Below, one piece after another: positions 11,988 to 27,925 of a stretch of 36,091 nucleotides of DNA. The stretch is from NCBI GenBank assembly GCA_945862005.1, contig CAMAWQ010000007.1, positions 1-36,091 of the forward strand, read 5' to 3'. The translations under genes and the position numbers were made by a program. Numbering within the stretch: position 1 is the stretch's first letter; each line of letters starts with the position of its first letter. The DNA comes from Hylemonella gracilis (GTDB lineage Bacteria; Pseudomonadota; Gammaproteobacteria; Burkholderiales; Burkholderiaceae_C). The notes beneath the pieces were generated by a model. The model was not told the origin of the DNA. It searched no databases and saw nothing but the letters and a program-made list of their open reading frames with translations.

Positions 11988-13607
11988 TTAATAACCTGCA
12001 GCCAGACCATCGCGTCGCGCGTCGCTAGCCGCCACATAGCCTTCTACCTTAGGGTCGCCCGCACGCCAAATAAACTGACCCGCACCAAAGTCTTGATAAG
12101 AATCGTTGATGACTTCCATTTTGTGGCCACGCTCGGCCAAACCTTGTACCGTGGCGATTGACATACCGGCTTCCACATTGATTTCTAACCCTGCGTTGTA
12201 ACGCCACCTTGGGGCGTCGCAAGCAGTTTGCGGATCTTGCTTGTAATCCAGCATGCGCACCAGCGTTTGCATGTGCCCCTGGGGTTGCATGTTGGCGCCC
12301 ATCACCCCAAAGCTCATCACAGGTTGGCCGTTTTGAGTCAAAAAGGCGGGGATGATGGTGTGGAAAGGCCGCTTGCCTGGCGCTACCAAGTTGGCCGGGT
12401 TGTGGGCATTGGCTAGCAAGTTGAACGCATGGCCTCGGTTTTGCAGACTCACGCCAAATTCCGGCTCCACACAACCTGAGCCAAAGCCCATGTAATTGCT
12501 CTGAATAAAGCTGACCATCATGCCGTTTTCATCGGCCGTGGTGAGGTAAATGGTGCCGCCCTTGACCGGGTTGCCCGCCCCAAAGTCCTGCGCCTTGTTC
12601 ATTTGAATCAGCTTGGCGCGCGAGGCCAAATAGGCGTCATCCAGCATCTGCTTGGCACTCACTTGCATGCTGCCGGGTTCGGCCACATAGCGGTAGACAT
12701 CGGCAAAGGCCAGCTTCATCGCTTCAATTTGCAGGTGCTGAGAGTCCACACCATCCACCGGCAAACCCGCCACATCCAGCTGGTTCAAGATGCCCAAGGC
12801 AATCAAGGCGGCAATGCCCTGACCATTGGGTGGAATTTCGTGCAGGGTGTAACCACGGTAGTTTTTGCCAATGGGCTCTACCCACTCAGGCTTGTAGGCG
12901 GCTAAATCGCTGGCCTTAAGGCAGCCGCCGTATTCATTCGAAAAACGCTCCAGAGCCTGGGCGATTTCGCCGCCATAAAAGGCCTGCCCTTTGGAAGCTG
13001 CAATGGCACGCAAACCCTTGGCTGCAGCCGCAAACTTAAACAACTCGCCCACACGGGGTGCCCTGCCCCAAGGCAAAAAGGCCTGCGCAAACCCCGGCAT
13101 GCTCTGCAGCTCGGCGGTGGCGGCTTCCCATTTTTGTTGCACCACCACGGGCATCAGGTAACCGCGCTCTGCAATTTCAATGGCCGGGGCCATCAAATCG
13201 GCAAAAGGCAACTTGCCAAAGCGCTCGCTCATGGCCACCCAACTGGCCACCGCACCAGGCACGGTCACAGCGTCCATGCCGCGCTTTGGCGGGTGCGCTT
13301 GCGCACCGTATTTAGATTCAAAGTACTGGGGTGTCCAGCCTTGGGGCGCACGCCCTGAGGCATTCAAGCCATGCAAGGCCTTGCCGTCCCACAAAATCGC
13401 AAACGCATCGCTGCCTAGGCCATTGCTAACGGGCTCACAAATGGTCATAGCTGCAGCCGCTGCAACCGCCGCATCCACCGCGTTACCCCCGCTTTGCAAA
13501 ATGCGCAAACCCGCCTGGGCCGCCAAGGGGTGAGAGGTAGACACCACGTTGCGCGCAAATACGGGCAAGCGGGTGCTGGCATAGGGATTGGAAAAATTGA
13601 ACTGCAT
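11988..13607 (-). CDS. Gamma-glutamyltransferase-family protein (cytoplasmic)
   Basis: Ntn-hydrolase that self-cleaves into two subunits and transfers or hydrolyses gamma-glutamyl groups. 539 aa. The N-terminal part shows the family sequence SGGNAVDAAVAAAAAM and EPVSNGLGSD. The predicted nucleophile is T352 in GGTIYLTTAD, which would release a 188-residue small subunit, the normal size. FGVMGANMQPQGHMQ near the end is also typical. No signal peptide is present, unlike E. coli Ggt, placing it with the YwrD-like cytoplasmic branch whose real substrate is often not glutathione. It lies downstream of tctBA, separated by a hairpin, and 34 bases upstream of the SDR gene. Confidence 0.92.
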   Translation of the reverse strand: MQFNFSNPYASTRLPVFARNVVSTSHPLAAQAGLRILQSGGNAVDAAVAAAAAMTICEPVSNGLGSDAFAILWDGKALHGLNASGRAPQGWTPQYFESKYGAQAHPPKRGMDAVTVPGAVASWVAMSERFGKLPFADLMAPAIEIAERGYLMPVVVQQKWEAATAELQSMPGFAQAFLPWGRAPRVGELFKFAAAAKGLRAIAASKGQAFYGGEIAQALERFSNEYGGCLKASDLAAYKPEWVEPIGKNYRGYTLHEIPPNGQGIAALIALGILNQLDVAGLPVDGVDSQHLQIEAMKLAFADVYRYVAEPGSMQVSAKQMLDDAYLASRAKLIQMNKAQDFGAGNPVKGGTIYLTTADENGMMVSFIQSNYMGFGSGCVEPEFGVSLQNRGHAFNLLANAHNPANLVAPGKRPFHTIIPAFLTQNGQPVMSFGVMGANMQPQGHMQTLVRMLDYKQDPQTACDAPRWRYNAGLEINVEAGMSIATVQGLAERGHKMEVINDSYQDFGAGQFIWRAGDPKVEGYVAASDARRDGLAAGY

Positions 13608-13660
13608 AGCGACTCAGAACCTCAAAGCAAACAAACTCTAAAACAGACTATTTAACGTAC

Positions 13661-13684
13661 AAACGGCACCCTAAGGTGCCGTTT
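13661..13684 (-). terminator. Terminator-like hairpin after tctA
   Basis: Perfect 10-bp inverted repeat AAACGGCACC / GGTGCCGTTT with a 4-base loop. On the minus strand it begins 23 bases after the tctA stop and is followed by GTACGTTAAAT; the stem ends in TTT but the T-run is short. It likely ends or attenuates the tctBA message before the gamma-glutamyltransferase gene. Confidence 0.65.
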
Positions 13685-13706
13685 GAGGGTTGCAGTGTAA
13701 AAGAAC

Positions 13707-15218
13707 TTACTCTTCTACAAAGGCCTCTTCACGTTTGGCCTTCACAGCAGGCATCAACACGATGATCAGCAACACCGCAGCAATTGCCAGCAATGTGGCC
13801 GACAAAGGCCGCGTGACCAACACGCTCCAGTCACCGCGAGACAACAGAAGCGCACGGCGTAGGTTTTCTTCCATCATCGGGCCCAAAATGAAGCCCAGCA
13901 ACAAAGGTGCAGGCTCCACACCCAGTTTGATAAAGATATAGCCGATGACACCAAATATCGCCACCATCCAAATATCGAAGGTGTTGTTATTGGTGGTGTA
14001 CACACCCAAGGCGCAGAACAGCACGATGGCGGGGAACAACCAACGGTAAGGCACGCTGAGCAGTTTGATCCAAATGCCAATCAATGGCAGGTTCAAAATG
14101 ATGAGCATCAGGTTACCGATCCACATGGAGGCAATCAGACCCCAGAACAGCTCGGGGTTGCTGGTCATCACCTGTGGGCCAGGCTGGATGTTGTGGATGG
14201 TCATGGCACCCACCATCAAAGCCATCACGGCGTTAGGTGGAATACCTAGCGTCAGCAAAGGAATGAAGGAGGTTTGCGAGCCTGCATTGTTAGCAGACTC
14301 AGGAGCCGCCACGCCGCGAATGTTGCCCTTGCCAAACGGAACTTCACCGGGCTTGAGCTTGGTTTTCTTTTCGACGGTGTAGGCCGCAAACGCCGCCAAC
14401 AAAGCGCCACCACCGGGCAAGATACCCAGCATAGAACCCAAAGCCGTGCCACGGAGAATAGCAGGCGTCATGAGCTTGATGTCTTCCCAGTTAGGGTAAA
14501 GGTTGCTTACCTTGTCAGTGAACACTTCGCGGTCTCCTTCCTTGACCGAAAGGTTGGCAATGATCTCGCCATAACCGAACACACCCATGGCAATGATGAT
14601 GAAGCCAATACCGTCGGTAAGTTCAGGAATGTCAAAGGAGAAGCGTGCCACACCAGAGTTCACGTCGGTACCCACTAGGCCGAGCAGCAAGCCCAGAATG
14701 ATCATGGCCACAGCCTTGAGCAAAGAACCCGAGGCCAACACCACCGCACCAATCAGACCCAACACCATGAGCGAAAAGTACTCAGCAGGGCCGAACTTGA
14801 AGGCGACTTCAGTTAGAGGAGCCGCAAAGGCCGCCAAAATCAAAGTGCCCACGCAACCGGCAAAGAAAGAACCGATACCGGCAGCGGCCAAGGCAGGGCC
14901 CGCACGGCCGCGTTTGGCCATTTGGTGTCCGTCAATAATGGTCACCACCGATGAAGATTCACCGGGCAAGTTCACCAAAATGGCGGTGGTAGAGCCACCG
15001 TACTGCGCACCGTAGTAAATACCGGCCAACATAATCAGCGCTGCAACTGGGGGCAGCGCATAAGTTGCAGGCAGCAACATAGCGATAGTGGCAATGGGGC
15101 CCACACCGGGCAACACGCCAATCAAAGTGCCCAAGAGGCAGCCGATAAAGGCATAAATCAGGTTGGTGGTGGTAAACGCAACACCGAAACCTAAGCTGAG
15201 GTTATTGATCAAATCCAT
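13707..15218 (-). CDS. tctA: Tripartite tricarboxylate transporter large membrane subunit TctA
   Basis: Inner-membrane channel subunit of a TTT carrier that takes up carboxylates delivered by a periplasmic TctC protein. 503 aa with about 11-12 membrane helices. Two family signatures are clear: GTLIGVLPGVGPIATIAMLLP near residue 30 and YYGAQYGGSTTAILVNLPGE near residue 70; a second-half repeat has GILPGGGALLAAF and GIPPNAVMALMVGAM. ATG 15218 is preceded by GAGGAGA at good spacing. It follows tctB after 11 bases. No tctC is in the window, so the substrate is unknown. Confidence 0.96.
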   Translation of the reverse strand: MDLINNLSLGFGVAFTTTNLIYAFIGCLLGTLIGVLPGVGPIATIAMLLPATYALPPVAALIMLAGIYYGAQYGGSTTAILVNLPGESSSVVTIIDGHQMAKRGRAGPALAAAGIGSFFAGCVGTLILAAFAAPLTEVAFKFGPAEYFSLMVLGLIGAVVLASGSLLKAVAMIILGLLLGLVGTDVNSGVARFSFDIPELTDGIGFIIIAMGVFGYGEIIANLSVKEGDREVFTDKVSNLYPNWEDIKLMTPAILRGTALGSMLGILPGGGALLAAFAAYTVEKKTKLKPGEVPFGKGNIRGVAAPESANNAGSQTSFIPLLTLGIPPNAVMALMVGAMTIHNIQPGPQVMTSNPELFWGLIASMWIGNLMLIILNLPLIGIWIKLLSVPYRWLFPAIVLFCALGVYTTNNNTFDIWMVAIFGVIGYIFIKLGVEPAPLLLGFILGPMMEENLRRALLLSRGDWSVLVTRPLSATLLAIAAVLLIIVLMPAVKAKREEAFVEE

Positions 15219-15229
15219 TTAGGGTCTCC

Positions 15230-15718
15230 TCAACCAGTAATGAAAGCAGGCCAAACGGGCAACTGCAACTTCAGCAGCTTCACAAAGGCCAAGTAACTGC
15301 CAATCGACAAAACCACGCTGAGGATCAACACCTCTTTGAGCTTGAAGACTTCACCGGCCAAGCTGGCCACAATCACCAAGCCAAAAATTCCAACGATCAA
15401 GCCCATATGTGGAATACCCAACTTGGGCAAACCACCGAGCAAGATACCAAACAACACGTTGGCCGAGATCACGAAGAACAAGGGCTTCCAAGCCCATTTG
15501 CCGATCTTATCGCCACCTTGCGCTTTTGAGGTAAAGCCCGTCACAGTGATGAGCACGCCCAAAATGGTTAAGACGGTCCCAAGCAAGGTTGGGAAGTAAC
15601 CTGGGCCCATACGGGCGCCGGTACCCAAGTTATAACTGGAAGCGCCATAGACAAAAGCCAAGCCCAACGCAGTAAACATGAGTCCGGAGAAAAAGTCTTT
15701 CTGACTCTTGATATTCAC
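15230..15718 (-). CDS. tctB: Tripartite tricarboxylate transporter small membrane subunit TctB
   Basis: Small four-to-five-helix partner of TctA, 162 aa. The GTG start (15716-15718) is chosen because AGGAGA sits 6 bases upstream and it yields the normal TctB length; an ATG-initiated longer frame would run through the upstream palindrome and has no ribosome binding site. The region NLGTGARMGPGYFPTLLG near residue 30 is the family signature linking the first two helices. First gene of the tctBA pair. Confidence 0.92.
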   Translation of the reverse strand: MNIKSQKDFFSGLMFTALGLAFVYGASSYNLGTGARMGPGYFPTLLGTVLTILGVLITVTGFTSKAQGGDKIGKWAWKPLFFVISANVLFGILLGGLPKLGIPHMGLIVGIFGLVIVASLAGEVFKLKEVLILSVVLSIGSYLAFVKLLKLQLPVWPAFITG

Positions 15719-15757
15719 AAAAGATCTCCTACAAATTTCTAGAAGGTCGCATTCTGC

Positions 15758-15786
15758 CTTGTATTCATGCGGCTTCTGGATGTGGA
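15758..15786 (-). promoter_or_regulatory. Possible tctB promoter
   Basis: On the minus strand: TCCACA (15786-15781), a 17-base spacer, TACAAG (15763-15758). Each hexamer matches consensus at 4 of 6 positions, so this is a weak sigma-70-type promoter that would need an activator. Start near 15751 would give a leader of about 33 bases. Confidence 0.3.
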
Positions 15787-15805
15787 TACCACCTATTTGC
15801 GCCAT

Positions 15806-15823
15806 CCTAGGGATATCCCTAGG
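15806..15823. promoter_or_regulatory. Perfect 18-bp palindrome upstream of tctB, candidate operator
   Basis: CCTAGGGATATCCCTAGG is identical to its reverse complement over all 18 bases. It sits between the spermidine-synthase-like stop (15831) and tctB, centred about 64 bases upstream of the transcription start implied by the weak promoter at 15758-15786. This is a classical class-I activator distance. No spacer loop is available, so it is a poor terminator and a good dimeric-protein site. The binding protein is not identified. Confidence 0.55.
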
Positions 15824-15830
15824 CACATCC

Positions 15831-16652
15831 TCAAGATATCAAGTCAACGGGTTTGAAGCCTTTGATCCATTTCAGTGCAGGCAAACCCCAACGGGCTTGT
15901 ATGAGCTCGGCACGTTGCACCAAAAGCTTGCGGTCGGGTCGCTTTGGAGTGCGTTGGGCCAGCACCACGGTGTTGCCCTCGCGCGTGGCCTTAAATGTCC
16001 ACAAGGCATCTGTCCCAAAAGCCTTGGCCATTTTTTGAAGGCTGCGCTGGTAGCTGGACGAACGCCCAAATAAATTGACTGTCATGCAACCATGCTCCGT
16101 TAAGGTGGCGCAGCAATCGGCATAAAAAACCTCACTATCGAGCACAGGGGCAGCGGCTTGAGCGTCGTACAAGTCCACCTGCAAGGCATCCACACTGGCC
16201 TGCCAATGCGCTTGCCGAATTTCTTCAGCCGCATTGCCCAACACCACTTGCATGCGTTTTGTGTTGGCTGGCAGCTTGAACCAGCCGCGGCAGGCGGCAA
16301 TGACCTGTGGGTTGAGCTCAATAGCGGTGGTCTGCATGCGCAGCACCTTGTGGCAAAACTTGGTCAAAGACCCTGCGCCCAAGCCCAGTTGCAGGGCTTG
16401 GAGACTGGGCACCGTGTCGGGCTCTACCAGCAGCATCCAAGCAAACATGCGTTGAATGTATTCATGCACCAAGGCGGTGGGGTCATCTATTCGCATAGAA
16501 CCCTGAATCCACTCGGTTTCCAAGTGCATGTGCCGCACATCGCCCCAATCCGAAAAATGCACCTCGGGCAAAACCGCAGCTGCTACTTGAGCAGCTTTTG
16601 AGACACCAGGGGATTTGGGAGCGCTTTTGCTCACAGGTAGGGCTGTACCCAC
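15831..16652 (-). CDS. Spermidine-synthase-like (SpeE-fold) methyltransferase family protein
   Basis: About 273 aa with the class I SAM-type fold of spermidine synthases: LQLGLGAGSLTKFC is the cofactor loop, TAIELNPQVI the acidic strand end, and VDALQVDLYDA the motif carrying the key Asp residues. It lacks the N-terminal beta-hairpin domain and clear polyamine-binding motifs of true SpeE, so the product is uncertain. ATG 16652 overlaps the preceding SDR by 22 bases; GTG 16634, which forms GTGA with that SDR's stop, is an equally likely start (267 aa). Last gene of the lolC-lolD-tatD-SDR run. Confidence 0.8.
   Translation of the reverse strand: MGTALPVSKSAPKSPGVSKAAQVAAAVLPEVHFSDWGDVRHMHLETEWIQGSMRIDDPTALVHEYIQRMFAWMLLVEPDTVPSLQALQLGLGAGSLTKFCHKVLRMQTTAIELNPQVIAACRGWFKLPANTKRMQVVLGNAAEEIRQAHWQASVDALQVDLYDAQAAAPVLDSEVFYADCCATLTEHGCMTVNLFGRSSSYQRSLQKMAKAFGTDALWTFKATREGNTVVLAQRTPKRPDRKLLVQRAELIQARWGLPALKWIKGFKPVDLIS

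Positions 16653-27835: not shown

Positions 27836-27925
<90 letters not shown>

Follow-up and report, generated by a model that had tools for sequence, protein, structure and literature searches.

The DNA analysed here (the window, 36,091 nt of Hylemonella gracilis) carries a tctBA operon within a run of minus-strand genes. Their order, taken from Pfam and NCBIfam profiles, is an aminopropyltransferase-like gene, a palindromic site, tctB, tctA, a gamma-glutamyltransferase gene and an SDR gene. The genes of the locus and the ribosome-binding site of tctB are as follows.

15831-16652, minus strand: polyamine aminopropyltransferase-like gene (NF003380, below its cut-off), ending 7 nt before the palindrome.
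15726-15730, minus strand: AGGAG ribosome-binding site of tctB, read from the sequence and aligned in relatives.
15230-15718, minus strand: tctB (TctB, PF07331; E 8e-17), with its start at GTG 15718 by homology.
13707-15218, minus strand: tctA (TctA, PF01970; E 3e-157), second gene of the operon.
11988-13607, minus strand: gamma-glutamyltransferase gene, conserved downstream of tctBA, either directly or with tctC or another gene in between.

The start of tctB was placed at GTG 15718 on the basis of homology in 73 genomes, a conserved V-N/K-I-K-S-Q start and the AGGAG site. In the stretch 11988-15718 there is no tctC beside tctBA, and the gamma-glutamyltransferase gene lies directly downstream. 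In three relatives (G013, G016 and G019) tctC lies between tctA and the gamma-glutamyltransferase gene, and in other genera a different gene is found there. Because tctC is missing next to tctBA here while it or another gene is present in relatives, the binding protein that partners TctAB of this organism is probably encoded at another locus. The conservation of the gamma-glutamyltransferase gene beside the operon is a hint of glutamate-type substrates; we regard it as a lead only. On the other side of the operon, many relatives have a GspE/PilB-like gene (named by reading its C-terminal sequence) instead of the aminopropyltransferase gene as the nearest upstream gene, and the site stays with tctB even where the upstream gene differs. 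An earlier note, made from the sequence alone, had remarked that no regulator gene is adjacent; in ten tctBA neighbourhoods, none was found to adjoin the operon or to lie near it.

The promoter region of tctBA contains the following putative features.

15806-15823, no strand assigned: putative distal operator, CCTAGGGATATCCCTAGG, fitting CTAGGG-N4-CCCTAG and enriched before tctB in the family.
15780-15795, minus strand: putative proximal operator, TAGGTGGTATCCACAT, with family consensus TANGTGNAATCCACAT and core GTGG-N3-CCAC, centred at about -43 and adjoining the -35 position.
15751-15756, minus strand: -10-like hexamer CAGAAT, 23 nt past the proximal site, identified from alignments.

The palindrome is self-complementary at 18 of 18 positions and begins 7 nt past the stop codon of the upstream gene, inside the 112-nt gap between that stop (15831) and tctB, just as the earlier note had described it: a perfect 18-bp palindrome in a short intergenic gap. 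Allowing up to three mismatches, it is the sole match in the window (0.01 expected by shuffling) and the sole copy in its own genome (1.7 Mb, 72% complete), which rules out a dispersed, REP-like palindromic repeat. The shorter form TAGGG-N4-CCCTA has four copies in the genome, namely the palindrome, one in a tRNA gene, one in pdxA and one on contig C8. The tRNA copy (window 27882-27895, within the tRNA at 27836-27922) is regarded as a coincidence. The pdxA copy, CTAGGGTTACCCCTAG (own contig C16; 2001-2016 of locus L107), was likewise rejected as an operator, being a coincidental match within the pdxA coding sequence of both the window's genome and G015. No second credible operator site was found in this 72% complete assembly, and a plasmid search gave no match. 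Across 85,000 species genomes the exact 18-mer has eight matches; both of those in Hylemonella are the tctB site, and the rest are unrelated or terminator-like.

For conservation, the sequences upstream of tctB orthologues were set in the same orientation and compared. The comparison revealed that the tctBA promoter contains two sites: distal CTAGGG-N4-CCCTAG, followed by the proximal site TAGGTGNNANCCACAT (window 15780-15795). The latter had been missed in the earlier note; it adjoins the promoter and is even more conserved than the palindrome. The first 30 regions upstream of tctB include 29 that have it, and among 61 genomes it occurred only before tctB with the exception of one off-consensus match. 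The distal element has the form AGGG-N4-CCC, at its best CTAGGG-N4-CCCTAG. Matches to at least 9 of its 12 positions were found in 22 of 45 tctB promoters, compared with 1.6 expected from dinucleotide shuffles (shuffle maximum 6), and matches to at least 10 in 13 of the 45 (0.1 expected). In about half of the tctB promoters of the family the proximal site is present without a clear distal one, so the distal site is auxiliary. The palindrome does not vary among the three closest species (18/18, with G015 and G020 both keeping it), while the flank just upstream is largely replaced, and an independent genus has the perfect palindrome CTAGGGTCATCCCTAG before tctB.

The two sites were also searched for as a module (AGGG-N4-CCC, 8-38 nt, TANGTGNNANCCACA) in 401 family genomes. 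It was found in 31 of them, spread over 16 genera, with none for the reversed control, and all 30 readable modules directly precede tctB. Traits outside the search pattern are constrained as well: the 4-nt centre is almost all A/T, and a C stands before the left arm in 16 of 19 cases. The site is thus dyad-symmetric, intergenic and conserved beyond its flanks at orthologous promoters, and this conservation excludes a chance origin of the palindrome. It also supports the earlier proposal of an operator-type regulatory site for tctBA. That proposal had come with its own test, namely whether the motif is absent upstream of tctB orthologues or scattered into coding regions. The motif does precede tctB orthologues, and the sites in relatives almost always lie outside genes. 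Three nearly complete species of the genus (G003, G007 and G008) have an altered proximal site, TAGG-N-GAATCCAGAA. Their tctB promoters lack the distal site and their genomes contain hardly any CTAGGG-N4-CCCTAG, which looks as though the regulator had been lost or changed in them.

The proximal site stands at a fixed distance from the -10. In relatives a -10-like [CT]A[CG]AAT follows the proximal site by 22-24 nt, and the conserved CAGAAT at 15751-15756 predicts a transcription start near 15744. No sigma-70 consensus promoter was found before tctB; a consensus -35 is missing, as would be expected for an activator-dependent promoter. Relative to the predicted start the palindrome is centred at about -70. 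The earlier note had placed it in a typical class-I activator position, about 64 bases before tctB. An upstream, activator-like position is indeed plausible, but the distance is wrong: it matches an ATG at 15752 that reads only MRPSRNL-stop (seven codons), and with the start at GTG 15718 the distance from the start codon up to the palindrome centre becomes 96-97 nt. The spacing of the distal and proximal sites is mostly 22-26, 32-34 or 41-45 nt, and in two cases 48-49. When it was examined at 10.5 bp by a Rayleigh test, p was about 0.01, with values that are not independent and with the window's 26 outside the main 22-24 cluster; helical phasing of the two sites is therefore suggestive only.

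Kept in place by relatives while the surrounding DNA changed, the palindrome is almost certainly bound by a regulatory protein. We think it probable that it serves as the upstream (distal) activator operator of the tctBA promoter, together with the proximal operator. A dimeric regulator would bind CTAGGG-N4-CCCTAG near -70, and a second player, either the same regulator or another, would bind the proximal TAGGTG-N2-AT-CCACAT near -43. The two sites would then jointly recruit RNA polymerase to a weak promoter with CAGAAT as its -10, and the effect would be activation rather than repression.

The distal motif is not confined to tctB. Within the genus, CTAGGG-N4-CCCTAG or its CCCTNG variant typically occurs two to four times per genome, with controls near zero, and in the family as a whole 37 of 121 genomes contain the motif. 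Only 4 of 56 perfect CTAGGG-N4-CCCTAG sites are clearly inside genes, compared with 72% of random positions, close relatives among these sites not being independent. Its neighbours, several named by reading the sequence and some checked by profile, include livK next to an AMP-ligase gene, a Crp-type gene divergent from an AMP-ligase gene, TctC, acetyl-CoA hydrolase/transferase, electron transfer flavoprotein, MFS carriers, a GNAT acetyltransferase and a LysR/holin pair. For example, at one locus (L110, site at 2001-2016) an acetyl-CoA hydrolase/transferase gene is preceded by two palindromes, CTAGGGTAAACCCTAG and CAAGGGTTTACCCTTG, with a distance of 25 nt between them, close to the spacing of the tct pair. 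At seven loci (L089, L109, L112, L215, L218, L219 and L224) a perfect CTAGGG-N4-CCCTAG separates an aldehyde:ferredoxin oxidoreductase/4Fe-4S (or CoxS-like) operon from a divergent GAF-Fis-HTH regulator gene. Many Comamonadaceae share this arrangement, in which the regulator has no AAA domain. Throughout the genus, a LysR gene and the holin-like gene divergent from it have between them a conserved TAGGGTT-W-TC-N-CTA-like site (L240-L263), mostly about 75-95 nt before the LysR start.

Could the palindrome instead be a repressor operator, with a dimer bound to it (and to the proximal site) blocking tctBA until an inducer binds? Perfect palindromes are typical of repressors, and at three other loci (L108, L111 and L123) the motif ends in CCCTAGAAT and overlaps a -10-like TAGAAT, which suggests repression at those promoters; one protein may both activate and repress, or similar sites may be bound by different proteins. 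Before tctB, however, about 55 nt separate the palindrome from the -10 downstream, too many for simple blocking, the proximal site ends short of the -10, and the core promoter is without a -35, as expected for activation. We therefore consider repression of tctBA unlikely. Somewhat less unlikely, though still doubtful, is that the resemblance to CTAGGG-N4-CCCTAG elsewhere is coincidental and that the tct distal site is a second copy of a tct-specific proximal operator. In one relative (L198) a second element resembling TAGGTG-N4-TCCACAT does stand upstream of the proximal site, some distal variants (TAGGGAAAACTTGTA, for example) are intermediate between the two, and TAGG is common to the half-sites. 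Against this, the distal dyad (GGG-N4-CCC) is even-centred whereas the proximal one (GTGG-N3-CCAC) is odd-centred.

Readings at the level of RNA fare much worse. An intrinsic terminator or attenuator of the upstream gene would suit an element that begins 7 nt past a stop codon and can form a 6-7 bp hairpin, and some of the unrelated exact 18-mer matches do lie in terminator-like inverted repeats (L003 and L007). Yet the palindrome has no T-tract and a loop of only 4 nt, a terminator search found none here, and in other genera its place is fixed relative to tctB rather than to the upstream gene. A terminator is accordingly very improbable, as the earlier note had judged from the small loop. We hold a structured RNA leader of tctB to be just as improbable. 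Folding of the 122-nt intergenic strand is slightly more favourable than that of shuffled sequences (z -2.3), but Rfam gave no match above the gathering score, the distance between palindrome and tctB varies among relatives, and the palindrome lies upstream of the conserved -10 and so is probably not transcribed from the tctB promoter.

The perfect sites found in relatives before LIV, TctC, aldehyde oxidoreductase and other promoters, almost always outside genes, make a wider regulon possible. CTAGGG-N4-CCCTAG might, in the broadest form of this idea, be the operator of one unrecognised Comamonadaceae regulator. Such a regulator would control tctBA, TctC and livK (organic-acid and branched-chain-type uptake), acyl-CoA synthesis or CoA transfer, electron transfer flavoprotein and the aldehyde:ferredoxin oxidoreductase operon, with only the tctBA branch kept in the window's reduced genome. 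We regard this as a tentative idea that is rather unlikely to hold. Four candidate regulators were considered, and all fit poorly. The Crp-type gene by the AMP-ligase promoter and a second one by the LIV/AMP-ligase cluster were found neither in the window's genome (G000) nor in G015 or G020, genomes that are 70-84% complete, so that this result is not final. Of this family G000 has only an FNR-like protein (KLETISR) and one short Crp-type protein, and no site lies upstream of either. The GAF plus Fis-HTH protein without an AAA domain, divergent from aldehyde oxidoreductase, was likewise not found in the window's clade (again, genomes 70-84% complete); it is a good candidate reader of the aldehyde oxidoreductase copy of the site. 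The LysR divergent from the holin-like gene is present in the clade, but G023 (99% complete) has no match at E 1e-25 although it has kept several sites.

TctABC systems are very numerous in Burkholderiales, and to our knowledge the control of most of them is not known. Among the regulator families with similar promoters, LysR-type proteins act at two-site promoters composed of an RBS and an ABS. The tctBA promoter likewise has a distal dyad and a proximal site near -35, and the window's genome has a LysR gene with a similar site upstream. The distal site here is, however, even-centred and without the T-N11-A box, and it is the proximal site that is the more conserved. CRP/FNR-type operators are 5-4-5 dyads such as TTGAT-N4-ATCAA. 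TAGGG-N4-CCCTA has this geometry, the positions are class I/II-like, and in relatives a Crp-type gene abuts one such site, but the half-site differs, and neither the window's genome nor its two closest relatives yielded the motif-linked Crp-type genes. BctDE of Bordetella is grouped with the TctDE-type control of tripartite tricarboxylate transporter operons. TctD, an OmpR/PhoB-subfamily regulator, has its own gene among its targets, and Pseudomonas opdH-tctCBA is under TctDE (PMC4513871). The promoters under TctDE belong to the same kind of transporter operon and have regulator sites within them. The present case differs in that ten tctBA neighbourhoods contain neither a regulator nor a sensor gene, and in its distal site, a perfect inverted repeat. 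The ACTU motif of the LuxR-type regulator CrbR is, like the palindrome, an inverted repeat at carboxylate-use genes, required for their activation at acetate-use promoters (PMC5715377), but by eye instances such as TACTACCATCGTCGAAT do not fit CTAGGG-N4-CCCTAG (PMC5715377). A literature search for the motif returned nothing in a relevant context. The operator sequence is thus apparently undescribed, while its kind, an ordinary upstream operator, is well known. Since the distal motif recurs at other promoters, its regulator may have further targets there, and the precise two-site module, common to at least 16 genera, provides a ready bait for fishing that regulator out.
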